Origin: Dastarcus helophoroides
Taxonomy: Eukaryota; Arthropoda; Insecta; Coleoptera; Bothrideridae
NCBI GenBank assembly: GCA_028583605.1
Contig: CM053326.1
Coordinates: 13,804,587-13,868,586, forward strand
DNA length: 64,000 nt
Reading direction: 5' to 3'
Positions 4,518-57,800 of the stretch are shown piece by piece. The translations under genes and the position numbers were made by a program. Every line of letters begins with the position of its first letter. The stretch's first letter is position 1. The notes below the pieces were generated by a model. That model made no database searches and was not told the origin of the DNA. It saw only the letters and a program-made list of their open reading frames with translations.

Positions 4518-4696
4518 TCAATCTTTCAATTATCGCGATTGAAAGTGAAATTGCTGAATCTTCACGAAGCAATTATTAAATAAAGTACATATTAAAAGTT
4601 AATCCTACGGGATTTTTTACTGACAAAATCGTCAATTGCTTCGTGAATATTTAAAGATTCAGCAATTTCACTTTCAATCGCGATAATTGAAAGATT
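4518..4696. repeat. Inverted duplication of the transposase 3' end
   Basis: About 55 bases at 4518-4573 are a near-perfect inverted copy of 4633-4694, which encodes the last residues of the transposase. RNA across this region would form a long hairpin spanning the stop codon. It is probably a local inverted duplication. Confidence 0.8.
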
Positions 4697-7134
4697 GCTC
4701 ATACGTTCTTGCGTCATGGAAGTACGTAGGTAATTTTTTATGATTTTCAATTTAGAAAAACTACGTTCTCCAGACGCAACTGATACAGGCATGGTCAATA
4801 ATAGTTTTAAGCTTGTAGATACATTTGGAAATGAATTTTGTAAATTGTGTTTGTACAAATACTTTAGGAGTTCTTCGGGTTGTTTCCTATCTTTTATAAT
4901 TATTTTCAATGAAATTAACTCTTCGTATAATTCTGCTCCGTTTATGTCGCACGATTCGCCATCCTTGAATTTATTATGAAAGTCGAAGCAACTTTTTTTT
5001 ATGTCGTCCTCTCCTATTTCAACAAATTTATATAAAAATCCGAAAGACTGTTCGAAATTGGATAATGTTTCAAATCGGGTAGTAACAGATGAAATGGCTG
5101 TATCCAATATTACATAGAAAAAATTAATTTTGAAATTTTCTTTAGCAGTTAACTGAATATCCTCATCTCCTTCATAGTCAAATTGTTTTCGCTTATGGCG
5201 TCGACGTAGATTAATTTCAACAGGAAATTCCGGTTGTATTTCAAGTGATTCACATAATTCATCAGCAATTTTCAAATACTTTTCGAAATTTTCATCATTT
5301 CTAATACTTTGGAAAAAAATTAAAATATTATTAATAGATTCAGCACATGAAGTAAGATTCCAAGAAACGGTCTGCATCATTTTACTAATAATATTTACTT
5401 TTTCTAAGATTTCGTACCATATTACTGTGGAACAAATAAATTTGTACGATTTAATTTTCATTGCCAAACATTTAGCTTCATGTTGACCTATTGGTGTTGA
5501 ACATTCTTCCGCTAGTTCTATTAGGCTGTCATAAATTTCACCTAATTCATGACGCAGTGGTCTAATCGCCTTAATCCTTGATTCCCACCGGGTTACGCTA
5601 ACTTGTTTTACTGTTAACGATTTTACATGTTTTTTTAAAATTTGCCATCGAAAAGGTGATCCGGAAAAGTAATTGTATATTGCTGACACATTACTAAAAA
5701 AATCCACAGTTGAAAAAGAAACTTTCGCTGCATCATTGACGACCAAATTTAATGTATGCGCGTTGCATGGCATAAACAAAGCTCGTGGATAATTGTCCAA
5801 AATTCGTTTCTGCAATCCAATATGTTTTCCAGCCATATTTGATCCATTATCATACCCCTGGCCTCTCATATCGTTAACATTTAATTTAAGAGAGCTTAAT
5901 TTTTCAATTAAAAAGTCGTAAAAAGCTTCTCCAGTACTTTTTTGAGCTGGAGAAAAACCAACGAAATTTTCTCTCACTTCTACTTCGTCATTTTGAATAT
6001 GCACATATCTCAAAATTATTGTAATTTGCTCGACATGTCCCATGTCCGGCGTACAATCCAAAATTACTGAAAAATATTTGGCGTCTTTTATTGCTGACAA
6101 AATATATTTTTGAATTTGCGCTGCAAGGATACTAATTATTTCATTTTGGAAGCGATTTCCCGCATAATGTGGCATATGGTTCTTTAAAGCAACTGATTGT
6201 TGAATGCGATTTATGTGATCTGCCATAACATCATCAAATTTTCCTATCATTTCAATTGCTTTTAGAAAATTTCCATTATTGTTTTCATACAATCTGCTCG
6301 AGCTACCTCTAAACGCTAAACCCTGTACTGCCAGAAATTGTACCACAGATATCATGCGTACGACAATTTGATACCATCGTTTTTTCTCTGCGTCATAATA
6401 CCGTTGCAAATTTTAACAATTGTAACTTTGTTTCTTAAATTTAATTCCAAATTTTTCCAATTGGTGCAATTTCCGATATGCAGCGATGTTTTTTCATGAC
6501 GAGATAAATTATCAGATGTGTGTTGCCAATCATTGAAGCCTTCATTAACTAATTTTATTTCTTGTTTGCCAAATAATTTACAACAGAAGCAAAATATGGA
6601 ATCCGTTTTTGGAGAATAGATTAACCACTCACGATTAAATTTTTCACCATTTGGCATTTTTCTATAGAAATAAGTTGATGAAAATGATCTTCCCAATTCA
6701 TTAATTGGATATGTAGATTGTTTATTTTGTATGGGTCCTTTTTCGATTAATATATCCAATATTTTAGTGGTAATTGTTAAAGGCCAGCAAGCTGGATCAT
6801 TTAAATCCATACACATAGCAAAATATGCTTTATCAATTTCAGCGGTATCGGTATTGTATAGATCGATATCCTTATTATCTTCTGTTTCCATTTCGTCGGT
6901 ACTACTAGTATTGTCATTAGCCTTTTCATTTTCGACAGATAATTCATTTTCATTTTTATCGCAAAACAAATCATCAATTGGATTTAATTGGCTACTACAA
7001 CTACTTTCCGGTTCTGGCGATTTTACTAAAAACTTTGTTAATGAGCCAAACATTTTTTTAGCTTCATTTTGCTTTTCCTCTCGCTTTCTTTTATATTGCG
7101 CTCCAGACAATCTTTTCGTTTTCCTTTCAGACAT
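4592..7134 (-). pseudogene. hAT transposase, TTF zinc finger + DUF4371 + hAT dimerisation domain
   Basis: Two frames, 260 aa (6352-7134) and 605 aa (4592-6409), together cover an almost complete transposase; one frameshift near 6400 separates them. The first part has an acidic, serine-rich N-terminus and a TTF-type zinc finger (residues ~115-235, with D-P-A-C-W-P, F-C-F-C-C-K-L-F-G, W-Q-H and H-E-K-T-S-L-H). The second has the RNase-H-like DUF4371 core (C-T-P-D-M-G-H-V-E-Q, then G-Q-G-Y-D-N-G-S-N-M-A-G) and the C-terminal dimerisation motif (P-V-S-V-A-S-G-E-R-S-F-S-K-L-K). It resembles ZMYM/TTF-type hAT proteins. With a single visible frameshift it is the best-preserved transposase here. Confidence 0.88.
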
Positions 7135-10735: not shown

Positions 10736-13700
10736 TTTTCCATTGTCTTTCCGTAAACTGCATTATTGAGCAATTTAAAGAAATCCTTTTCAAATTGATT
10801 TTTTGCATGCTTACGGTAATGTGTATTCAAGTCGATAAATTATTTTAGCCAACATGATTGCTTAAACTGAAGTACGCGATGAATATTTGTTATTTTTAAC
10901 CCGTGTTCTAAACACTGTTGGAGATTTCTATAGTGAATTATGTATCTTTTCTTGCCATTTAAATTTGGAATTAACTTTGAATATTTCGATCCGGGAGCAA
11001 TTTTGTTTTCTACACAAAAAGGTAGGTCATTGTGAAGGTCGTGTAAATGTTGCGGATATTCCAGATCGACTTCAAAACCTCTTCAAGACCTCTGATGTGG
11101 GAGAAATATTTGCAACATTTATCGAATTCACATCATCCACCCATTTAAAGTCTGAACAAGGAAGAGGCTGAGCCATTGCCCAACCGTACAAATTATTTGC
11201 ATCCAGGTACACAATGTACTGTGAATCCCTTTCTTTATCGTAATTTTCCAAGTATTTGTTATTTGCCACTGAATGCCTTAGTACGCTTTGGGTTATGCCT
11301 CCCCTAATCCCACTTTTTATAAAGTGATGCATGTCATAGTCGGTCAACAATTCCAACTCAACTTCGGTATATTTAAGCATTGCCTCCCACGCAAGACCTG
11401 GAGCTGTGTAAAAGTGACAAGGGTCCAGATTATAGATGCTGTGACAGATTTTGTGAAAGTTTTCAAAAACGTCCGTTAATAGTAAAACGTCAGTTTTTAG
11501 ATATAATTCTAAATACTGCCACATCTTTTCAATCCCAAATTTTTCCCATATTATTTTGGCATGATTATAATCATCGTCCGAACATGCTTTTTTCATAAGT
11601 CTACTATAAAATTTATCCTGAGTAGGAAGCGACGTTTCCTCCAACCTATCCCAGGAATCTAAATATTCATAGGGCAAAACGCCCTTCCTTGTCAACAATT
11701 TGAATTGTTCTTCATCTGGATATAACCTTTTGACTGTTTCAAGCTGATTGGATGACAAATTGCTGGCCAACGTTTCCAGACTGGCTTGCATAAAGCGAGC
11801 CGAATCTACAAAACGTAATTCCATTGTTTGGTTATTTGGACCAACAGGAACTGTTTTCCTTAGAGAAATATAACACTCTTTATTAAGAGGAATAACTTCA
11901 ATGGCACCAGCTACCTCATCCAAAGCTTTAATAAACATGTGACAGTCATATCCAGAAAAGTTATGAAAGAATATTGGGAAAAATTTAGGAACTTTATACT
12001 CCAAATTGCATTTACTATGAGCTGGACCCCTATACTTCCCTGTGAGGTAACACGGTCGGAATTGTCCAACAATTTCTTGCAAATATGACATGCATTACTT
12101 GTTTGTTGAAAATTTCGCTCAGCTTCGGTGAATTTACTCATAGCTTTTGGTTTCATTAAATGTTCATTGTACAAATGCTTGAGGTCACTTACCAAACTAT
12201 TTACAAATTTCCTGGAAGAATGAGGGCCTTTGTAGGTTTTAAATATATCCAAAGACGAGTCGTATGCACACTTGACATAATACGAAAACGCGCATGGTAC
12301 ATGTTCTTTGGTCGTGATGGTGTATGATCCATTTGTATTTGGGGCGCAAGTATCTACCTTCTGCAACAGACATTCAAAATCTGCATAAACAACAAAAGGA
12401 ACAGTTAATTGTTTGTTGTACCTTTCAAGCTTTAAAATTGTTTTTTCTGGCGTCTGCATTTCAGTAACAACCTTGTTACACTGCAACTTGTGAGCTTGGA
12501 ACTTTTGTTGAGTAGTAAAATGTAGCAAGCACCTGTTGCAGATGTAAATTTGTCGTCCACTCTTTGTAATTTGCCGAGAAACCAGTCGCGACAAATTTTT
12601 TATCCAAACATAATGACTATTTTCGTTAGGACCTTGTAACAAAAGCAAATTGACATGCAGTTCTCTTTTTTTCTGGCTTTGGTAATACGGACCCACAACT
12701 TTGTCACCTTCCACACCGAAAACATTTATACTGATGTGGCAGTTTCGTTCCTCAAACTTTCGAATGTCATTAACATTCAAGGGAAAATCCAAATCTGAAA
12801 AATCGAGAGATATTCCGTTTGCTAATGTTATAAGGTCCGATCGAATGTCTGTTACAGAATAAGAGGCAGGTCTTTCGGAATGTTTCTGATCTGGATACAG
12901 CGCCGATATAATAGCCCACTTGAAGCAATATATGTCTTCATTACAAACGTTTACGCAAGCCTTTTTGGTTATAAAGACTTGCGGTAGACGAATATAGTGA
13001 CCTCCCTTAAATGGAATATATTCGTTTAAATTAACTTCCAGATGACAAATAGACAATAAGGTCCACCCACTGTCTCGTTCCTGAAAATCATCCATCTTGG
13101 CCACTATACTGTCCACCATTTCTTCAAAGGCTCTCTGGAGGTCTTCGTCGTCACAATAAATTTCCATCCTGGTATTAAATGACTTGACGGAAATTTCCAT
13201 GTCGTCCTCATTCATCTTTACATATTCGGTAAATAGTTCCAAATTAAATTTGAGACATTTACCTTTGGCGCGTTGGCTCCTCAATTCCTCAAATACAGGG
13301 GGTTTAGCTTCTTCGAAGAACGCCTTCACATCAACCATAAAATCACGCCTACACTCATACACCAAAGTATAAATGCGTCCTTTAAAAGCGGATTTTACGA
13401 CTTTTAAATGTGGCATCCGTCTCATGGTTTTGAGCGGCCTTTTTCTTGTGTACCTGACTCTTTTCATGGGATGTCCAATCGTGAACTTCTGTCAGGCAAA
13501 ACACACACATCCGACTTGGTCTCCATGCACCAGAAGACTCTCCAGCGGTGGCAGGGGGATGACTAATAGAACCACTCGTCGAGGGTTGGTTGATGTCTTC
13601 GGGTCGGTATGATGAAGCTTGAGGTCTTGAACCACTTGCAGATGGACTCTGTTTTGCGTCATAAATTTTCTTACCGTGAACATTTCTCAGGTGACGCTTT

Positions 13701-19666: not shown

Positions 19667-21327
19667 TAGGGTTGCCAACATTTCATCAGTGAAATATAGT
19701 ATTTTCCAAAAAAGTTATAAAAAAATATAGTATTTTATGAACAAAGAAAAAAATAAATATATATTTGTTAAGTACTTATTTATTTTTATAAAAACTATAT
19801 TTTTTTGCACTTCTTGTACTTTGTAACAGTTTTTTGTTTAAAATAAAAGTGTCATATGCTTTGTCACATTTAATTTTTAAATTGATATAAATCAAAAGTT
19901 CATTTTTTATTAATGACATACTACTTCTATTTCTCTCTTCTCGTCATTTCGAATTCATAACCGAAAATATTCTTTCTGTGAATGCCGAAGTGGCGGGAAC
20001 AGAGAGCAGGAATGAAATTACTTTCAGTAAATTTGGTAGATTATTTTCAGTATTTTTTAGAATATATTGCCATTTTTGGGCTGTAGTTTTCTCAGTAAAA
20101 TCACTACAGTCTTTTACTTTAGCAAAGATTTCATTTAATAGTGTTATTTCAGAGTAAAAGTCGTCCATTTTTATGCTCAATTTTTCTTGTAAATTCAGAA
20201 CTTCTACTATTATCTCACAATCATTAAATGAAATCTCCTGTTTCAAATTTAATTTTTGGATTTTACATAACCAATTGCATTCACCAAAATCAAACCATTT
20301 ATTAAGATACTCTAAACATTTATCAATAAAAACCAAAAAATTATTTTGAATTTCATAACTTTCTGTGGGGGATTTTACTTCTAATGATTGCAACATTTTT
20401 TTGGTTTCATAACCAAAAAAGTATCTTTTTTACGTTGTTCTAGCGTCGATTTTAAAGTTGACATAATATTATACACATCTAAGACTGTGATGCTATTGCC
20501 TTCAAGTTGTTTAACAGCTTTATGAAAGTTATGTAAAAAATGGCTCGCGAAATGCAAAAAGATTTGAACTTTAATGCTTCCATTAATTTTATTCATCATC
20601 AAAATATTTTGAATATGTGGACACTCCTGCCCTAAACTAAAAAAATAATCACTCAAAGCCTTCCAATTCAAAATCATGTTGTCCACACAAGGTAGCAATG
20701 AAAGCCACCTAGTATCAACATGTCGTTTCAACTCATGCCATTCACCTTCAACAACAGCAACACATTTTTTAAGCTCTTCCCTACGAACTGCAGAAAAAGA
20801 GAAATGACTGTAGATTTTTAAAATTATATTTTCAACATCGATGCTTAAAAAATTCATTGCATGCTTGACTGTGTTGTGAACTATGTGTGCGTGACAATTG
20901 CCCTTCACCAGGAACTACTCGTTCAATATTTCAAACCAGACACTCTATCAAAGGAAAGGCTGTGGTGGGATAATGAACTATTTATAGCATTAAACATACC
21001 ATTTGCAGATTCATCACAATTTTCGTAAAAGTCTAATTAATAACTTGTTTTGTATCCCATTTTCAATATCAAAATATTTTACAACTAAGGGAAATAATTT
21101 TATATTTTTTCTATTACTTGCATCCGTTTGCAAACAAAAATTTAAATTAGGGGAATTTAAATCATCCAGTAAAGTTTGCAATGCATAAGGCCCCAAAACC
21201 TCATTAACCAGTGCTTCCATTTTAGTACGTCCTAATTTTATGTTCAAAGCGGTTTTAGAATCGCCATATATGATTTTGTTCAGTTTTACAGTACAGTCCA
21301 TGCTGTTATTAGGAAGATTGCGTTTTG

Positions 21328-21338
21328 CTGTATGGTAA
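21328..21338. repeat. Left 11-bp target duplication of the ribozyme array
   Basis: CTGTATGGTAA matches 24335-24345; a preceding G also matches, so the duplication is 11-12 bp. Confidence 0.88.
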
Positions 21339-21400
21339 TGACAAATGACCAATTAAATGTTCTGTAATTAAACAGTTAAACGTGTTTAAAATTGAAAATA

Positions 21401-21469
21401 TGTACAACCGCAACCATAGACTAGTTTCGGCCTTCCTTGGCCTCGTCAGCATGGTACGGTGGTTGTACA
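21401..21469 (-). ncRNA. Type-I hammerhead ribozyme, copy 1
   Basis: Same core as copy 4 (22608-22676), on the minus strand; this unit is truncated beyond the ribozyme by the left edge of the array. Confidence 0.88.
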
Positions 21470-21866
21470 CACTTCCAATTTAAAGCCGTTAGTCAGTCGT
21501 ATAAGTACCCAAGAGAGCAAACCTCCATCGGGTGACTTGTAACTGACTTTTAACTGTTTATTACGCAAACATTCTCGCTACATGCTAATTGAAGCATTAC
21601 TCTCTGCTGAGATAATAAGCCTTGTATATACGAATATATACAAGTTTATTACGATGCAATTGAAATCTAATTTCATTAGAATCCAATGAAAATTAGACTG
21701 CAATTGCAAAGTTCACGTAGGTGAGGCAAAGCTTGTATCACGGGTTGCATCGCAACATCCATAGATACAAACGTCCTCGGCGTGACTTTACTTTCATCTA
21801 GTTTTGACAAATGACCAATTAAATGTTCTGTAATTAAACAGTTAAACGTGTTTAAAATTGAAAATA

Positions 21867-21935
21867 TGTACAACCGCAACCATAGACTAGTTTCGGCCTT
21901 CCTTGGCCTCGTCAGCATGGTACGGTGGTTGTACA
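21867..21935 (-). ncRNA. Type-I hammerhead ribozyme, copy 2
   Basis: Identical by eye to copy 4, minus strand, 466 bp from copy 1. Confidence 0.9.
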
Positions 21936-22332
21936 CACTTCCAATTTAAAGCCGTTAGTCAGTCGTATAAGTACCCAAGAGAGCAAACCTCCATCGGGTG
22001 ACTTGTAACTGACTTTTAACTGTTTATTACGCAAACATTCTCGCTACATGCTAATTGAAGCATTACTCTCTGCTGAGATAATAAGCCTTGTATATACGAA
22101 TATATACAAGTTTATTACGATGCAATTGAAATCTAATTTCATTAGAATCCAATGAAAATTAGACTGCAATTGCAAAGTTCACGTAGGTGAGGCAAAGCTT
22201 GTATCACGGGTTGCATCGCAACATCCATAGATACAAACGTCCTCGGCGTGACTTTACTTTCATCTAGTTTTGACAAATGACCAATTAAATGTTCTGTAAT
22301 TAAACAGTTAAACGTGTTTAAAATTGAAAATA

Positions 22333-22401
22333 TGTACAACCGCAACCATAGACTAGTTTCGGCCTTCCTTGGCCTCGTCAGCATGGTACGGTGGTTGTAC
22401 A
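22333..22401 (-). ncRNA. Type-I hammerhead ribozyme, copy 3
   Basis: Identical by eye to copy 4, minus strand; last ribozyme before the inversion centre. Confidence 0.9.
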
Positions 22402-22607
22402 CACTTCCAATTTAAAGCCGTTAGTCAGTCGTATAAGTACCCAAGAGAGCAAACCTCCATCGGGTGACTTGTAACTGACTTTTAACTGTTTATTACGCAA
22501 ACAAATGTTTGCGTAATAAACAGTTAAAAGTCAGTTACAAGTCACCCGATGGAGGTTTGCTCTCTTGGGTACTTATACGACTGACTAACGGCTTTAAATT
22601 GGAAGTG

Positions 22608-22676
22608 TGTACAACCACCGTACCATGCTGACGAGGCCAAGGAAGGCCGAAACTAGTCTATGGTTGCGGTTGTACA
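22608..22676 (+). ncRNA. Type-I hammerhead ribozyme, copy 4 (reference description)
   Basis: Seen in order: TGTACAACC (outer stem I), ACCAT (inner stem I), core CTGACGA matching C-U-G-A-N-G-A, stem II GGCC with a six-base loop then GGCC, GAAAC, a minimal two-base loop, and GTC. The 3' side ATGGT and GGTTGTACA pair back to close stem I. Predicted self-cleavage is between 22658 and 22659. The very short stem III is typical of hammerheads in animal retrozymes and Penelope-like elements. All invariant core bases are present. Confidence 0.92.
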
Positions 22677-23073
22677 TATTTTCAATTTTAAACACGTTTA
22701 ACTGTTTAATTACAGAACATTTAATTGGTCATTTGTCAAAACTAGATGAAAGTAAAGTCACGCCGAGGACGTTTGTATCTATGGATGTTGCGATGCAACC
22801 CGTGATACAAGCTTTGCCTCACCTACGTGAACTTTGCAATTGCAGTCTAATTTTCATTGGATTCTAATGAAATTAGATTTCAATTGCATCGTAATAAACT
22901 TGTATATATTCGTATATACAAGGCTTATTATCTCAGCAGAGAGTAATGCTTCAATTAGCATGTAGCGAGAATGTTTGCGTAATAAACAGTTAAAAGTCAG
23001 TTACAAGTCACCCGATGGAGGTTTGCTCTCTTGGGTACTTATACGACTGACTAACGGCTTTAAATTGGAAGTG

Positions 23074-23142
23074 TGTACAACCACCGTACCATGCTGACGA
23101 GGCCAAGGAAGGCCGAAACTAGTCTATGGTTGCGGTTGTACA
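23074..23142 (+). ncRNA. Type-I hammerhead ribozyme, copy 5
   Basis: Exactly 466 bp from copy 4 and identical by eye. Confidence 0.9.
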
Positions 23143-23539
23143 TATTTTCAATTTTAAACACGTTTAACTGTTTAATTACAGAACATTTAATTGGTCATTT
23201 GTCAAAACTAGATGAAAGTAAAGTCACGCCGAGGACGTTTGTATCTATGGATGTTGCGATGCAACCCGTGATACAAGCTTTGCCTCACCTACGTGAACTT
23301 TGCAATTGCAGTCTAATTTTCATTGGATTCTAATGAAATTAGATTTCAATTGCATCGTAATAAACTTGTATATATTCGTATATACAAGGCTTATTATCTC
23401 AGCAGAGAGTAATGCTTCAATTAGCATGTAGCGAGAATGTTTGCGTAATAAACAGTTAAAAGTCAGTTACAAGTCACCCGATGGAGGTTTGCTCTCTTGG
23501 GTACTTATACGACTGACTAACGGCTTTAAATTGGAAGTG

Positions 23540-23608
23540 TGTACAACCACCGTACCATGCTGACGAGGCCAAGGAAGGCCGAAACTAGTCTATGGTTGCG
23601 GTTGTACA
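23540..23608 (+). ncRNA. Type-I hammerhead ribozyme, copy 6
   Basis: Exactly 466 bp from copy 5 and identical by eye. Confidence 0.9.
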
Positions 23609-24005
23609 TATTTTCAATTTTAAACACGTTTAACTGTTTAATTACAGAACATTTAATTGGTCATTTGTCAAAACTAGATGAAAGTAAAGTCACGCCGAGG
23701 ACGTTTGTATCTATGGATGTTGCGATGCAACCCGTGATACAAGCTTTGCCTCACCTACGTGAACTTTGCAATTGCAGTCTAATTTTCATTGGATTCTAAT
23801 GAAATTAGATTTCAATTGCATCGTAATAAACTTGTATATATTCGTATATACAAGGCTTATTATCTCAGCAGAGAGTAATGCTTCAATTAGCATGTAGCGA
23901 GAATGTTTGCGTAATAAACAGTTAAAAGTCAGTTACAAGTCACCCGATGGAGGTTTGCTCTCTTGGGTACTTATACGACTGACTAACGGCTTTAAATTGG
24001 AAGTG

Positions 24006-24074
24006 TGTACAACCACCGTACCATGCTGACGAGGCCAAGGAAGGCCGAAACTAGTCTATGGTTGCGGTTGTACA
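24006..24074 (+). ncRNA. Type-I hammerhead ribozyme, copy 7
   Basis: Exactly 466 bp from copy 6; the unit ends 260 bp later at the array's right edge. Confidence 0.9.
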
Positions 24075-24334
24075 TATTTTCAATTTTAAACACGTTTAAC
24101 TGTTTAATTACAGAACATTTAATTGGTCATTTGTCAAAACTAGATGAAAGTAAAGTCACGCCGAGGACGTTTGTATCTATGGATGTTGCGATGCAACCCG
24201 TGATACAAGCTTTGCCTCACCTACGTGAACTTTGCAATTGCAGTCTAATTTTCATTGGATTCTAATGAAATTAGATTTCAATTGCATCGTAATAAACTTG
24301 TATATATTCGTATATACAAGGCTTATTATCTCAG

Positions 24335-24345
24335 CTGTATGGTAA
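24335..24345. repeat. Right 11-bp target duplication of the ribozyme array
   Basis: CTGTATGGTAA, identical to 21328-21338; the transposase reading continues directly into it. Confidence 0.88.
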
Positions 24346-29478: not shown

Positions 29479-30336
29479 TTAGCATTCATTAATTATTTTG
29501 TTAATTCTCTTTTGCATGTCCGGCCAATAATATTTTCTTTTTAAGTGATTATATGTTTCGATTATTCCGTTATGATTGTTTTCGTGGTATTCCTTTATTA
29601 TTTCACTCTGTGCCTCAGACTTTTCTATATCTTTGCATATTGTGTTGCATTTAATTATTTTGACGGTATTGTCGCATAATTTTTGACATATTCTGAGAAA
29701 GGTTAGCTGAAGTCTTTCTTCGTGAAAGTATATGCCGTATACATTCTTTGGGTTAATTATTTCTTTTAACATTTCTTGAATATTTTCTTCTTCCTGTCCG
29801 GATCTGAGAGTAACTTTATAATGGTGTCTTTTAAAAGGTCTGGTATACTTTATATTATATTCATCGCCTACTTTTACTTCTAATCTATACGTAAATTGGT
29901 TAAGTGGCTTTTCAGATATGGGGAGACCAAACGTGGGATTTTCTGTTGCGGTGTGCTGGGTATTACCATCAGTTTCTTCGTCAAGGGTATCTAGGTTTAG
30001 CTGTGTTAAGAATTGGTCAGCTAATTCTGGATTTAAGGGGTCATTACCATCGAATTGGGGTATTATTGATAGTAAATCGAGGTCGTCTTCCTTGGTATCA
30101 ACTTCTTTGGTATTTATTATAATTCGGGAAAGCGCATCTGCTACAAGGTTCTCTTTTCCTTTTTTATATTGAACGTCGTAATCGAACTCCACTAGGCGTA
30201 ATCTCCATTTTACTAATCGCGAATTCGGCTCTTTTAGTGAGAAAAGCCAAACTAAAGGTTTATGGTCAGTTTCAATAAAGTATTTTCTACCGTAGAGGTA
30301 TGGTCGAAAATGTTTTGTGCATTCGACTATTGCCAA
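29479..30336 (-). pseudogene. RNase H C-terminus, linker and integrase zinc domain of the errantivirus
   Basis: The 285-residue frame starts in RNase H (A-I-V-E-C-T-K-H-F-R-P-Y-L-Y-G; then F-I-E-T-D-H-K-P-L; then V-A-D-A-L-S-R-I). It continues through an acidic linker to an H-H-C-C zinc domain (H-E-N-N-H-N-G, Y-Y-W-P-D-M, terminal N-E-C). A stop separates it from the integrase core. Confidence 0.82.
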
Positions 30337-40035: not shown

Positions 40036-40590
40036 AACAGTATATTTGAATTTCGTGCCAAAGCAGAACCCCCGTGCTAATTTTAAAATAATTTTTGAAT
40101 TATGATATCAATGACATATCGGGACATTATTTTTGGGTTGGTAACCTAATATTTTGGGGTGGGCACGCCCTCCCCCCCTACATACGCCCATGACAATTAG
40201 AAACATTCGTTGATTTGTTACAGCAAAGTTGAAAAGGGAAATTACAAATTTACCAAATAACAATTAAAAACTAAATTTTTTTCAATACAACAGGCTTACG
40301 TTTTTGTAATCTTAACAAAATAATTCCTGGAAATTAAGATGATTGTATACATTAGGATTATTTAAGGATTATCTCAATAAAGTATTAGAAAGATTTAATT
40401 TATACTAAATGAAGTTTAACTTACATGAAATTATAAATCAAATCTTCTACCTATTTCAGCAAATTTGTTGATCACTTCTTTAACTGTGACATCAATTTCT
40501 CTATGAATGCTTAGCAGTTTGATGGAACGGACTGGTCCTTGGTTATCTTCAAAAATTGAAATACAGAACTTGTCCCCTGAAACCAAGAAA
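40036..40590. other. Unassigned AT-rich interval
   Basis: No gene, repeat or terminal structure recognised between the LTR of Gypsy element 3 and the 3' region of the Penelope-like element. Confidence 0.4.
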
Positions 40591-40604
40591 GATTAAAAAA
40601 CACA

Positions 40605-40665
40605 ACAAAGGTTGCTCTAAAGCGTTTCGACAGCCAAGCTGTCATCTTCAGAGAGAAACTAACAT
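40605..40665 (-). ncRNA. Hammerhead-like motif in the Penelope 3' region
   Basis: On the minus strand: GTTTCTCT, then CTGAAGA (fits C-U-G-A-N-G-A), GACAGC-TTG-GCTGTC (stem II), GAAAC, and AGAGCAAC pairing back to GTTTCTCT with one mismatch. Stem III is degenerate (GCTTT instead of a paired GTC), so activity is uncertain. Penelope-like elements are known to carry hammerheads in their terminal repeats. Confidence 0.6.
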
Positions 40666-40775
40666 CTAATCTTAAAATTAACCCTTATATACTAAGAATA
40701 TTCACTTCGTACGTGATCGGCCGCACCCGAACGCGCATGCGCATCCAGTCATACACGTCGTTGTATCACAATTCC

Positions 40776-41456
40776 TTATCTATCGACCTTAACTATTTTT
40801 AACAGAGATGAATGGCCTAAAGGTCCAGCGCAACCATTCATAAGGTTGTTTCCAGCCTTATGGATGGCTAAGCTCTCACATGCATTTAACATATAATTCT
40901 TATTAACTACTCTTAACAATTTAATATTATTATCTATCCTATGATCTAATTCAAAAGCATGTCGAGCCACACTTGACTTCTCAGTTCTTCCGTACCTCAA
41001 ATGAGCCAAATGTTCTTTGAGTCGGATTTTAAGAGATCGTCTAGTTTGTCCAACATACTTTTGAGGACAATCCCTACATGAAATTTGGTAAATACCAGAC
41101 TTATCTGTTTGCTCTACTTTATCCTTTAAACTACCTAAAAGCGAATTTAATTTTCCATTAGAAGTATAAATAACCCGAAAACCCTGATTTCGTAAAATTC
41201 CACCCAAACCCTGCGTGAGCGAGGGTTCAAATGGAAGTGAGACGAATTTAAAGTTTTTGTTTTCATCAGCTCGGAAAGTTGTAGTGTTCACCAATTCACA
41301 TTTAAATTTTTTCTTATTAATAATTTTATAAATAATATTTGGATCGAATCCATTAACTTCAGCTATATGTTTTATTGTCTTTAACTCCTTTCTGAATCTT
41401 TCCCTACTAAGAGGAAGACTCAGAAGGCGATGGGCAAGGAAGTTGAAGCTTGCCAT
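40776..41456 (-). CDS. Penelope-like RT C-terminus and GIY-YIG endonuclease (226 aa)
   Basis: An open frame whose C-terminal 100 residues form a GIY-YIG nuclease: S-G-I-Y-Q-I-S-C (GIY part), K-Y-V-G-Q-T (YIG part), R-R-S-L-K-I-R-L-K-E-H (catalytic Arg region), H-A-F-E-L-D-H-R and a Glu in N-A-C-E-S-L-A-I. The upstream 130 residues match the RT thumb/linker region and continue past the start to 41665. The enzyme nicks target DNA to prime reverse transcription. The frame is intact here but the element is truncated. Confidence 0.87.
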   Translation of the reverse strand: MASFNFLAHRLLSLPLSRERFRKELKTIKHIAEVNGFDPNIIYKIINKKKFKCELVNTTTFRADENKNFKFVSLPFEPSLTQGLGGILRNQGFRVIYTSNGKLNSLLGSLKDKVEQTDKSGIYQISCRDCPQKYVGQTRRSLKIRLKEHLAHLRYGRTEKSSVARHAFELDHRIDNNIKLLRVVNKNYMLNACESLAIHKAGNNLMNGCAGPLGHSSLLKIVKVDR

Positions 41457-41665
41457 TTTGTGCTGTATGCAATGGTTAGAATCGGAAGTTATATAGCGGA
41501 AGGTACTGGAATCTTTCCTATATACATCAAATTCTAATCTATTTTTATTCCTAATAACTAAAATGTCTAAAAATGGTAAAGCGGCTTCTTTCTCTAATTC
41601 TACAGTGAATTTAACTGTTGGAAAACGTGAATTTAAAACATCAATGCGTAAATATACAGCAGATA

Positions 41666-45296: not shown

Positions 45297-47265
45297 TATT
45301 TATAACCAAAGACCTTGTACAAGTCTGTTGAGGTTAAATCGCACATACACTTCATTCACGCAACTAGTTGAACATTCCGAGAACTTAAAGTACACCAAAT
45401 ATTTACAAAGTTTGTATTTCACTTTCTCGACCGCATTAATACGAACGTCGTAAAACGGGGACCAAATGACACTACAATATTCTAAAATTGGTCTCACTAA
45501 TGCTACAAACTTAACTAATGTTTGCGGATTTCTAAAATCCTTTCCCGCCCTAAAAATACAGCCGAGCACCTTAAAAGCTTTCACAGTAACATACTCAATA
45601 TGCCTAACAAAATCCAATTTATCGTCAACAAGTACACCAAGATCCTTAATCACATTTTCCACACGCAGGAGTTGACCACCGAGAGAATAATTCATTGAGT
45701 GTCTGTTGTGCCGACGCGAAAATTGCATGACAGCACATTTCATAACATTAAGCTTGAGCTTATTTGTATCGCACCATTGTTCTTCTTGTAACTGCTGCAC
45801 ATCACGTTGATCGGAAATTGCTCTATACACCTTCAAATCATCAGCGTACAGTAGGTAGTTTGACATAAATCCCAAGACAATGTCATTGATGAAGATGTTA
45901 AAAGGAACAGGACCCAGATGCGAGCCCTGAGGTACACTAGATTCAACATGATAATCCTGTGACACATGACCATTAGCGCGGACACGCAGCCGCCTCCCCG
46001 TCAGATAGGACCGAAGCCAATCCAGAGCCTTGTTCCTGAGTCCATATCGTGCCAATTTATCAATCTAAATCCCGTGGTGAACTGTATCGAAAGCTTTACC
46101 AAAGTCCGTGTAAATGGGGTGTACTTCCTTACCCACATTGAAAGCCTCAAGCACATAACTAGTATACAACATAAGATTGGCAGAGGTTGACCTACTGCCA
46201 GTAAACCCATGCTGTCTTGTTGTGATGATACTTCTGAACGCATACGCGACTTGGTGTAAAATAAGTTTCTCCAGCAACTTCGGCAGGGCGGACTGAATGC
46301 AAATCGGCCGGTAATTGGTGACATCCGATCTCTTACCCGACTTATCAATGGGACTTATATACGAGATTTTCCATAAAGACGGAAATACTCCAGTACGAAG
46401 CGATTCACTAAATATATGAGTTACCGGTTCACACAGGCCAGTTGCACAATTCTTCAAGAACACATTGGGAAGGCCATCCAGACCAGCTCCTTTTTTCACG
46501 TCCAACCCGCAAAGACCGTCAAATACATCATCAAAACTAATGCACATTGAGGTTAGGTTAACATCAACATAACTATTCTCATTGACACCCGGCAAGCTGA
46601 GGTCCACATTTGGATGATCTCCACCATTTGTATACACGCTCTTGAAGACAAACGCGAGAAGGTCACATACACCATCACCATTAGACACCGTATCATCCCA
46701 GTGCATAGTCTCTGGAATATCCCGATTACCCCTCGCCCTATCCTTCAGAAATGACCAGAAAACGTTAGCATTCTTATTCATAGAATTCTCGACCTTGAGC
46801 AGATAGTTTTTGTAACACTCCATACTAAGTTTCTCACACTCAGATCTGAGTGAGCTAAATGCTCTGTAAGCGCGGGAGGTTCCTTGCTTCTTAAAGCGGG
46901 CATGCGCATCTTTCTTATGACGCATTTTATGAATAAGTTCCCCGGTGAACCACGGTGGATAGCGAGTGTGTCGCTTAACAAAGAGAGGCACAAAACGTTG
47001 TATGGCAGTATTAACTATTTCAAAAAAGAGATCTATTTTCTCATCAATAGATTCACACCTGTATAACTCAATCCAGTTAACTCCTAGGAAATAATTATTA
47101 AGCCCAGCATAGTTCCCCTTTCCAAAATTGATAAGCCGACGCACTTGGGGGTTTCAATTGAATACTTTGCTCCACAGATAGTAAGATGGCAGGATGATAC
47201 CTGTCCTCCTTTTAATCAGTGCAGGTGTTTATCTGTACCAGAGTCTCAATACTCGAAAAGCATAA
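45297..47265 (-). mobile_element. Jockey/CR1-type non-LTR retrotransposon, 5' truncated
   Basis: A long minus-strand reading frame covers the end of an endonuclease domain, the full RT and a C-terminal region. The 5' end is lost within Gypsy element 4's integrase near 47270. The 3' end is at or just past the stop near 45297 with no clear poly(A) tail. Confidence 0.85.
45300..47144 (-). pseudogene. LINE ORF2: reverse transcriptase
   Basis: Frames at 46065-47144 (359 aa) and 45300-46055 (251 aa) are in phase and separated by one stop near 46060. Motifs: K-K-G-A-G-L-D-G-L-P (fingers), N-Y-R-P-I-C-I-Q-S (R-P-I), R-Q-H-G-F-T-G-S-R-S-T, F-G-K-A-F-D-T-V-H-H (F-x-x-A-F-D), S-V-P-Q-G-S-H-L-G-P and L-L-Y-A-D-D-L-K-V-Y (Y-A-D-D active site). 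Upstream of 47144 the reading R-Y-H-P-A-I-L-L is a relic of the endonuclease S-D-H-x-P motif. One stop makes this a recently dead copy. Confidence 0.88.
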
Positions 47266-47269
47266 ATCT

Positions 47270-47868
47270 AAAGCTAACCTTTGAAATGGATATTCACTTG
47301 TAGTGGTAATTTCCATAGGGGCTTTAGCACTTTTATTATGCGTTTTATTGATTTGGCACGATATGCAATTTTTATTGCCTCGTTTAATTTCATTTTTCAT
47401 GTTGGGCCATTTATAATTTTCTTTTATCCTTAAATACGTTCTTCGAAAACCACAATGACCGGAGATGGAAGATTCGTGATTTTCTTTTATAATCTGAGAA
47501 ATTTCTTCCTTTTCTTTAGGGCGTATTTTCGACTTATTTATTAGGACAACATCGATATTATCTTTGATAAAAATGAAATGAATAAGTTCAATAAAAAGAT
47601 TTTCTTTAATAAGAGGATTCTCTTCTAACGGATTCTTTAAATATATTTTTGAAATCTTTTGCGGTTTCAGGACTTGTTTTAATTTTTTATATGAATGGAA
47701 AAGATCGTTGATTGTTAGTTTATCGAAGTGATTTATTTTAGACATAATTAAAAAGGTAGATTTTGAAGAATGAAGGGGTACTACGTCATATTGATTAAGA
47801 TTTCTTAATTCTTGAGGGTCTATTTCCGTATGTGATAGAAATATGATTGAAATATGGGTTTGACTCAT
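47270..47868 (-). pseudogene. Integrase N-terminal part of Gypsy element 4
   Basis: The zinc-binding domain is visible (H-E-S-S-I-S-G-H-C-G, Y-K-W-P-N-M, C-I-S-C), followed by the start of the core (F-Q-R-L-A-L-D) where similarity stops and LINE sequence begins. Confidence 0.8.
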
Positions 47869-54879: not shown

Positions 54880-57800
54880 AATACTAACGTTAACGTATGA
54901 ACCGATGAATTCTTCGAAATTGGACCCCAAGCAATTTTTAGAAGAGTCAAAGTTAGCAGTAAGCGAAGCCATAACAAGTTATTTGAAAAATTCCGATTAA
55001 ATTTAATATCGAATTGTTTGCCCAAAATTTAAAAATGAGGATAGGAAGAAGAAGTATCAGTGAAATCCTTCAACGCGAAAATGGAGAGGGCCCTAAGTGA
55101 AGAAGACGTCAGCAAGAAATTTAGAAGATATGTCAAAACAGATATTGACCAAGATGGACGAGTTTCAAGAACGTGATAGCGGTTTCGCACTGGTAAAATT
55201 GATCCACTTGGAAATCAATATTAATTCATATGACCCACTAAGGGGATCGAACTACATCCCTTTGCCGAAAAAAATTGCCCAAAAACGTGCCTGTATTAAC
55301 ATCAGAAATTCAGACCAGTATTGTTTCAAATGGTCGATTATAGCAGCAATGACGTGCACGTTTAACGAGATGTTGGACAAAAATTTAGATAGACCTTCAA
55401 CATACAAGATTCCGAACGTTGCTCGCGACAAGATTGTTTTGCCAGATTCAAAATTTATTTTGAATTTTTCTGGACTTCAATTTCCGCTTAAGATCACAGA
55501 CATTGTCATCTTCGAAAAGAACAACCCGGATATCAGTGTGAATGTCTTTGGCGTCGAAGGCAAGTCCATCGTGGGTCCCTATTATTGTACCAAGAAGGAA
55601 AAGCAATACCACATAAACTTATTGCTGGTGACAAAAGAGGACAAAAGCCACTTCGTATGGATCCGAAACCTTTCAAGATTGATCTCCAGTCAATTATCAA
55701 AACATAAAAGTAAAATTTATTTATGCAACACCTGCTTATTATACTTTGCAGCGGAAAAGACCTACAAAGAGCACAGACAAGAATGTAATCGAGTGGTAAC
55801 GACCATGCCGCCTCCGAGCAAACGAATCTTAAGATTTGAAAACTACGAGAAGCAATTAGACGTCCCATTCGTTATCTACGCCGACTTTGAGTGCATCTTG
55901 GAAGGTATTAACACCTGTCTGTCGAATCCGACTGCATCGTCCACCACCGATGTTCAGCGACACGTTCCTTGTGCCTTTGCCTACTACATTAAATGTTCCT
56001 TTGATTCGACCTTGGATCGTTTGCGAAAATACAAGGGGGAGGATTGCGCTTCGAAATTTGTGAGGTCTCTCCAAGAAGACGTTCAAGAGCTGTACGACAC
56101 CGTGTTATCGCGTCCGAAACCAACTAACCCACTTACCAGTGCAGAAGAGAATCATCAGACAAACTCAAAAACTTGTCATATATGTCAGAAACCATTCGGT
56201 AAGGAGAGAGTAGCTGACCATTGCCATTTAACTGGTAACTATAGAGGTCCCGCACACAACGAGTGTAATTTGTTGTTGCGGTTGCCTAAGTTTTTCCCAG
56301 TCTTTCTACATAATTTTAGCGGTTACGATTGTCATTTATTTATCAAAGCTCTCGAAGAGATACCAGGAGATATAAATTTAATTCCTCTCAACAAAGAACT
56401 ATACGTCTCGATGTCAAAAAGAATTCCAGTATACGATTGCCGTCGAAAGATTAAAGAAACCCTTGAGATTCGTTTCTTAGACTCGGCCCGTTTCATGCAG
56501 GCGAGTCTAGATTCATTAGTAACAAATCTAAATCCCACAGACCTTCAAACTGTACGACAATATTATAAAGAAATTGAAAAATTTGAATTAGTTAAAAGAA
56601 AAGGAATTTTTCCATACGAATATCTTAACTCCTGGGATCGACTCGAAGAAACTTCGTTACCTTTGCAAGAAAAATTTCATTGTAGACTCAACAATAAATT
56701 CTGCTCTGACGAGGACTACGAGCATGCCAAGAAAGTCTGGGAAAAATTTAATTGCAAAAATCTTGGTGAATATTTAATGTTATATTTAATAACTGACGTT
56801 CTGCTTTTAACCGACGTATTTGAAAATTTTCGCAAAGTGTGTAAACGAATTTTTTCACTAGACGCTGCTCATTATTATACAGCTCCTGGCTTATCATTTT
56901 CCGCTATGCTGAAATATACTGCTATAGAACTCGAACTACTTACCGATATCGGAATGTTTACATTCTTTAAGAGAGGTATCAGGGGAGGATTAACTCAATG
57001 CTCTCATCGTCGTTCAATCGCAAATAATAAGTATATGAAAAATTTTGATAAAACAAAAAAATCTCAATACCTAATCTATTTAGATGCGGTTAATTTGTAC
57101 GGGTATGCAATGAGTCAATATTTACCGTATGGAGGATTCAAATGGGTCGAAGACGTTAATACCGTAGACCTGATGAGCATACGTGACGATTCCAAAGTTG
57201 GTTATGTGTTTGAGGTTGATTTAAATTATCCAGATGAATTACACGATAATCATAATGATCTACCGTTTTGTCCGGAAAACAAAACTACCAATTCAAAGAC
57301 TAAGCAACGTAAGTTAATCGCGGATTTGAAAAATAAAAAAAAATACATTATTCATTATAAAAATCTGCAATTATGTGTTAAGCATGGACTTCAAATTACA
57401 AAAATTCACCGCATTTTGCAGTTTGACCAATCCGATTGGCTAAAAAAATACATAGATTTAAACACGTACTATCGATCGAGGGACTAAAAGCGAATTCGAA
57501 AAGAATTTCTTTAAGCTCTTGATCAATAGTATATACGGTAAGACGCTAGCAAGATGTGGATAAAAGGAAAAGACGTTCGCATAGCGACTAAATGGGAGAG
57601 TCGTGGTCGTTCTTTGGGAGCCCGTGCGTTAATTGCCAAACCAAATTTCCACAGTCTGGCTCAGTTTTCTAAAAACATGGTAGCCGTTCAATTAAATCGT
57701 GTAAAAGTAGTTTATAACAAACCAATTTATTTGGGTTTTACAATTTTGGAATTGTCAAAATTTCATATGTATCGTTTTCATTATGAATATATGAAAATGA

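Follow-up and report, generated by a model that had tools for sequence, protein, structure and literature searches.

Opposed arms and two start sites in the insertions of a hammerhead retrozyme from the beetle Dastarcus helophoroides

The window analysed here, a stretch of 64,000 nucleotides of Dastarcus helophoroides (contig CM053326.1, positions 13,804,587 to 13,868,586), contains a retrozyme, built of 466-bp units with a hammerhead ribozyme motif in each. Its seven hammerhead cores lie in two opposed blocks, which meet head-to-head at the junction 22503/22504 inside a 12-bp duplication. An earlier note on this DNA had read the region as a single tandem array (21339..24334) of seven identical copies every 466 bp; instead, the minus strand has three cores and the plus strand four, and the spacing holds only within each block, although the unit length was right and the 5 full units compared have 0 differences. 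The flanking target duplication proposed in the same note is present as a perfect direct repeat, and its view that the array contains no convincing protein agrees with the longest stop-to-stop frame around the circle (89 amino acids; unit GC 37.8%), which makes the unit non-coding. The head-to-head inversion, which the note missed, led to the main result of this study, namely that the arms of these insertions begin at two fixed start sites, of which each target strand uses one. Unit coordinates used below count from 0, which is the first base past the GTC cut site (window 22659).

21327-21338, no strand: left copy of the target duplication GCTGTATGGTAA, 12 bp
21339-22503, minus: minus arm of 1165 bp, 2.5 units, with outer end at unit 79 (site A) and inner end at unit 313
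21419-21449, minus: hammerhead core, minus copy
21885-21915, minus: hammerhead core, minus copy
22351-22381, minus: hammerhead core, minus copy
22504-24335, plus: plus arm of 1832 bp, 3.93 units, with inner end at unit 311 and outer end at unit 278 (site B); its final 2 bases overlap the right duplication copy
22608-22676, plus: type I hammerhead of the first plus unit (stems I, II and minimal III), predicted cut after 22658
22628-22658, plus: hammerhead core, plus copy 1
22736-22742, plus: predicted hairpin loop UCAAAAC, unit 77-83, start site A on the first plus unit
22935-22938, plus: predicted hairpin loop AGCA, unit 276-279, start site B on the first plus unit
23094-23124, plus: hammerhead core, plus copy 2
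23560-23590, plus: hammerhead core, plus copy 3
24026-24056, plus: hammerhead core, plus copy 4
24334-24345, no strand: right copy of the target duplication GCTGTATGGTAA, 12 bp
40797-41645, minus: 5'-truncated Penelope-like element (end of the reverse transcriptase and GIY-YIG), candidate helper type, separate from the array

The exact core CTGACGA-GGCC-AAGGAA-GGCC-GAAAC-TA-GTC, with all invariant letters and stems I and II, was found in 7/7 cores, in agreement with the hammerhead claimed beforehand for each unit (core, stem II, GAAAC, minimal stem III and GTC) and with the cut that had been predicted after the GTC at 22658. Stem I consists of two parts (TGTACAACC/GGTTGTACA plus CCATG/TATGG) and stem II is GGCC/GGCC, and when the whole window was scanned with a regular expression (CTGANGA, a stem II no shorter than 3 bp and GAAA within 40 nt), the array's seven cores were the sole matches. 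Stem III (GAAAC-TA-GTC; ACUAGU) is a self-complementary palindrome, and because it is also too small for hairpin closure alone, cleavage may depend on two ribozymes together; in an energy model of such a double hammerhead, stem III brought no gain. The 91-nt hammerhead region has a more stable fold than 200/200 shuffles, and the whole unit than 100/100. Judged by its sequence, the motif would be an active ribozyme. Two old, diverged relatives of the unit were also seen, one at L069 (1227-1333, 75% identity), which kept the hammerhead core with a stem II that is now GTCT/AGAC, and one at L063 (2579-2798, 68% identity).

The pattern of stem I and core occurs at 195 places (101 + 94) in the 539-Mb genome, compared with 3 (2 + 1) for a reversed-pattern control. 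Our sample, clustered by hand, comprises 52 insertions of this genome (that of the window and 51 fetched) and comes from the first 100 of the 195 exact-pattern places, on contigs 1-5. Sequences were parsed against the cyclic unit by a dynamic-programming script that permitted either strand order, and arms of at least 40 nt were counted, which gave 89 arms in 37 two-armed and 15 single-armed insertions (the second arm of L022 was merged to 97 nt in the arm table, and extra fragments of L027 were dropped). All 37 two-armed insertions are ordered minus then plus; the pattern itself is on both strands in 16 of the 52, with the minus copies first in 16/16, and three insertions missed by the exact pattern have one stem I change each and an intact core. 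We set aside an origin as a DNA transposon with inverted ends, since the inner joins vary and the arms contain from 0.1 to 4.2 units (the longest is 1977 nt).

The outer ends of the arms are concentrated at two places of the unit, with 46/89 no more than 12 nt from unit 80 (site A) and 38/89 equally close to unit 278 (site B), a total of 84/89, and at both sites alike TGA are the first bases copied. Among the two-armed insertions, 34/37 have one end at A and one at B, none (0/37) has like ends and 3/37 have a non-standard end (L024, L035, L050); under an independent draw, the probability of 34/34 unlike pairs is ~4e-11. A follow-up DNA search gave 193 matches (only 40 of 1750 candidates were scored, and insertions were counted by hand), and among the matches listed there are at least 16 insertions beyond the first set, with 17/17 visible outer ends at A or B; for C1:35738276, one of these, both ends are visible, at unit 277 and 74. 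For 13 others of them with a B end, the hidden end was predicted beforehand and was found at A in 13/13 (unit 76-84; 91 nt fetched each), with the caveat that a second B end was already unlikely, as the listing would probably have shown it, while other short distances were open. Two fixed start sites, with one used per target strand, appear as a well-supported rule. Two further loci were noticed in passing: a 135-bp retrozyme fragment at L071 (6468-6601, 91%), whose outer end at unit 279 is site B again, and a decayed retrozyme array within a Penelope-like copy at L065 (65-1467), which ends at unit 273 and was found via the GIY-YIG search, hence independently of the ribozyme pattern.

Perfect duplications of 10 bp or more (range 10-17) are present in 33/37 two-armed insertions, with lengths of 13 bp (n = 11), 12 bp (n = 9), 14 bp (n = 7), 11 bp (n = 3), and 10, 15 and 17 bp (n = 1 each); in L034 and L041 the duplication is longer and contains one mismatch, and L035 and L050 lack a duplication. 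The duplications are 76.9% AT, compared with 69.0% in the flanks, and the insertion sites gave little result for a target motif beyond this AT-richness. When 33 sets of joined flanks were searched for empty sites, an unoccupied copy was found for L011, with 97.2% identity along 600 nt, and the flanks of L016, L046 and L051 had unoccupied matches of 76-86% across the join (best 83-86%), with a match for the L051 target falling in the window (40551-40797); matches of L012 were left uncounted, as they were overlapping loci of the same place. The genome-wide distribution, which the earlier note had suggested checking, is that of dispersed insertions with 10-17 bp duplications and not of a satellite block. 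A satellite array spread via unequal exchange, without retrotransposition, would be expected to have tandem identical units, as is the case here, and hammerhead satellites (newt, cave cricket) are described as an old category. However, the small and dispersed insertions, their perfect duplications (33/37), the empty sites and the two fixed outer ends all speak against it; the duplications and empty sites refute it for this retrozyme family, and we give it practically no chance.

The two arms of an insertion also resemble each other in their variants. Within one insertion, the opposed arms agree in 116/118 comparisons made at 7 common variant sites (for shuffled arms the mean agreement is 0.655 and the maximum 0.861, 5000 shuffles), and successive passes within an arm agree in 177/179. 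Over the full set of sites, with 3 arms omitted for net indels, the opposed arms within an insertion have 43 shared non-consensus letters and differ at 35/8972, while arms of different insertions have 555 shared non-consensus letters and differ at 6539/536,407. Since opposed arms carry the same variants, both appear to have been copied from RNA of one sequence type; a single RNA molecule per insertion may have been used, although two identical circles would look alike. Inner ends are scattered around the unit, and 10/15 single-armed insertions have a length of 456-529 nt, which is about one 466-nt turn or slightly over. In a one-turn test restricted to arms of 330 nt or longer, the count was 10/14 for single arms compared with 2.8 expected (P 5e-5), and all arms gave 21/61 compared with 9.4 expected (P 2e-4); a pause of the cDNA on reaching its own start would explain this excess.

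Folded as a circle, the unit has a predicted energy of -163.4 kcal/mol and 8 hairpin loops, which total 38/466 nt, and in this predicted fold the loop UCAAAAC (77-83) corresponds to site A and the loop AGCA (276-279) to site B. When the copies with at least 460 positions read were folded as circles, position 79 was in a loop in 38/40 and position 277 in 39/40; the folded copies are closely related, so this gives no independent covariation support. Both positions were in loops in 2/100 shuffles.

Building on the opposed arms, the duplications, the two start sites with their one-of-each rule, the shared template type and the empty sites, all of them read directly from the sequences, we consider it likely that this retrozyme, probably one of the type without long terminal repeats (non-LTR), is inserted by double target-primed rolling-circle reverse transcription, with an enzyme most likely of the Penelope-like element (PLE) type. 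In the order of events that we infer, the transcript would self-cleave at its hammerheads and the 466-nt unit would be ligated to a circle. Both strands of an AT-rich target would be cut ~12-13 bp apart by an endonuclease-reverse transcriptase, which is most likely a PLE enzyme, and the two freed 3' ends would each prime a cDNA, one in loop 77-83 (A) and the other in loop 276-279 (B), both templated by RNA of the same sequence type. Extension of the cDNAs would vary, some stopping short of a single turn and others passing four, before the two were joined head-to-head. With somewhat less assurance, though still leaning towards it, we propose that one RNA circle bridges the target break, each broken end taking one of its two dedicated entry loops, and is copied outward-in from both sides in a rolling-circle manner, and that PLEs with a tail may use a compressed version of this. 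If true, insertion would work two-handedly, with each loop of the one RNA having its own fixed share of the task.

Several results weigh against this mechanism, and they concern its start sites, ribozyme, template, junctions and enzyme. Five of the 89 outer ends lie at other positions (L017, L024, L035 and L050 twice); the non-standard end of L024 kept a perfect 11-bp duplication, whose end matches 6 unit bases at that place, and L017, L035 and L050 (two ends) are without a convincing duplication. The covariance-model check of the window (Rfam), which had been suggested for the hammerhead, gave no match at curated thresholds, formally one of the outcomes that the note had named as refuting; the best sub-threshold match was Hammerhead_HH9 with 22.5 bits compared with a gathering value of 52 (E 0.0072, 1-kb search), and since it lies in the correct register, we give the miss little weight. 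As for the circle, two-armed insertions in the one-turn test gave 11/47 compared with 6.7 expected (P 0.064, not significant), the 446-536 nt length range of that test was picked after the data had been seen, and a multimeric linear RNA could yield multi-turn arms too. It may be asked whether double priming takes place as described, with a linear multimeric transcript of an existing array as the template. Arms of up to 4.2 units would fit this, arrays of identical units would yield concordant passes, and in the available excerpts on the anole PLE, insertion in vitro reportedly had no need for hammerhead cleavage (PMC11167929). On the other hand, such a template does not predict the one-turn clustering of single arms (10/15 at 456-529 nt), and many source insertions have only about one unit per arm, so that we regard a linear template as rather unlikely and prefer the circle.

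The junctions between arms mostly have 0-2 bases in common or short extra stretches. The inner ends are at most 12 nt apart in 5/37, compared with 2.0 expected (P 0.046), which is a further point of this kind; two of these five, L034 and L048, have the ACTAGT palindrome in common, and a third is the window, with an almost symmetrical junction (unit 313/311). Because of these near-equal inner ends, some joins may be fold-backs or palindrome-guided, and fold-back may contribute in a minority of insertions. In such a process, one cDNA primed at one target end would fold back and self-prime the second strand, giving a head-to-head product, and self-priming on an antisense template is, according to the accessible part of the paper, the published reading of head-to-head PLE copies (PMC3846280). 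As a general explanation, however, fold-back was rejected on the end pairing and the unequal inner positions: it predicts equal inner positions, but they are more than 12 nt apart in 32/37, and it does not predict a second fixed site at the far end, where like ends are found in 0/37. We therefore see it as very improbable for the family as a whole, and retain priming from both target strands. Inner ends at the ribozyme cut site were found in L033 and perhaps L054 (L034 and L048 are ambiguous at the palindrome), and an enrichment there is only suggestive. At the junction of L048 (1533-1578), by the ACTAGT palindrome, there is a small extra inverted fragment pair, as if copying had switched twice.

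Regarding the enzyme, there are at least 91 GIY-YIG matches in the genome, and the PLE fragment of the window is 16 kb from the array. L070 contains a 417-amino-acid frame with reverse transcriptase and GIY-YIG domains and 54% identity to its best protein matches, and the insect names among its protein matches include longhorn beetles and Tribolium. The PLE copies examined end at about two places ~30-45 nt apart, like the reported PLE tail, and four of them are head-to-head (L061, L063, L064, L072); in L061 and L063 the two ends coincide with the two PLE end sites. By analogy, these observations are suggestive of a PLE as the enzyme for retrozyme insertion. Counting on the opposite side, L064 and L072 have a short second arm that ends elsewhere, so only 2/4 head-to-head copies have both ends at the PLE end sites, and the duplications around 7 PLE copies were 7 bp at best, none of them clear. 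Little similarity was found between the retrozyme and the 3' end of the PLE family: the Smith-Waterman score of 22 compares with 19.9 on average and 36 at most after shuffling. The same mechanism could be served by a LINE-type retrotransposon or another element, since LINE-1 also makes paired insertions in opposite orientation by twin priming, in which two target strands prime two cDNAs that are joined head-to-head, as proposed for the retrozyme here. The link to PLEs consists of co-occurrence and analogy. In LINE-1 twin priming, one cDNA starts at the poly(A) tail and its partner at a variable internal position, while in the retrozyme both starts are fixed loops and the template is presumably circular; no poly(A) start was seen, as the cDNAs start in loops. 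The PLE family of this genome also has two alternative 3' ends and head-to-head copies, and the anole PLE protein, in the excerpts available, cuts and extends both strands, with cDNA starting at an internal stem-loop at two sites (PMC11167929). An enzyme of non-PLE type seems to us improbable, and a PLE remains the preferred candidate.

The element would be a new addition to the non-LTR (metazoan) retrozymes, a class already known, as the earlier note had suspected: it has a type I hammerhead per unit, a short, low-GC, non-coding repeat, dispersed insertions with duplications above 4 bp (10-17 bp) and PLEs in the same genome. The description by Cervera & de la Pena 2020 is alike, as far as its accessible text goes, in the type I hammerhead, the short low-GC non-coding tandem repeats, the duplications of more than 4 bp, the PLEs in the same genome and a proposed circular-RNA template that is possibly target-DNA primed (PMC7229834). 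It differs in the ~170-400 nt RNAs and 150-450 bp repeats reported there, compared with 466 bp here, so the unit is larger than many retrozymes, as had been noted. The arms begin at two internal sites and end variably, unlike LTRs. PLEs encode a reverse transcriptase and GIY-YIG, whereas this unit is non-coding; in its working it resembles a PLE substrate and is not itself a PLE. Satellites form long arrays without target duplications, while here the insertions are dispersed, the longest arm has 4.2 units and duplications are present. Insertion of metazoan retrozymes has so far been a proposal, with PLEs as strong candidates and target priming of the circle as one option, and the accessible text of that paper is silent on opposed arms, on a pair of start sites and on a separate site for each target strand (PMC7229834). 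Among the papers listed by literature searches that cover few subscription journals and no bioRxiv preprints, none had a title or abstract start describing two start sites divided between target strands. The rule by which each target strand has its own fixed loop is well supported and amounts to a new variant of target-primed insertion.

One comparable system is the Anolis PLE PAc (Frangieh et al. 2024), which in the excerpts available is alike in that both target strands are cut and extended, the target is AT-rich, cDNA starts at an internal stem-loop at two sites and the RNA contains a hammerhead; its start sites are adjacent (30-40 nt tail), and the excerpts report no difference between top and bottom strand (PMC11167929). 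In the retrozyme, by comparison, the sites are 198 nt apart, and every two-armed insertion whose ends are standard uses one of each. In Adineta vaga (Arkhipova et al. 2013), Penelope copies have inverted head-to-head pseudo-LTRs (pLTRs), 8-10 bp duplications and an optional one-sided tail, but according to the part of the paper seen they are long, protein-coding copies, explained by antisense-template self-priming (PMC3846280). The pDo500 repeat of the Dolichopoda cave cricket is also an insect hammerhead repeat, with a unit near 500 bp if its name is taken as a guide, and differs in being described, in the available excerpts, as satellite DNA (PMC2837043, PMC2808323).

The insertions record the reaction itself, as each cDNA shows where it started and how far it ran, with one RNA type behind both arms. 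The open question of retrozyme insertion becomes a simple test of two named loops, and an alternative reading is offered for the head-to-head Penelope copies, earlier attributed to self-priming.

The window contains other mobile-element remnants at 4592-6409, 11072-13467, 29479-30336, 46065-47868 and 55097-57487, which include hAT, DNA polymerase B beside MYST-like zinc fingers (Maverick-like), and pieces of reverse transcriptase and integrase.

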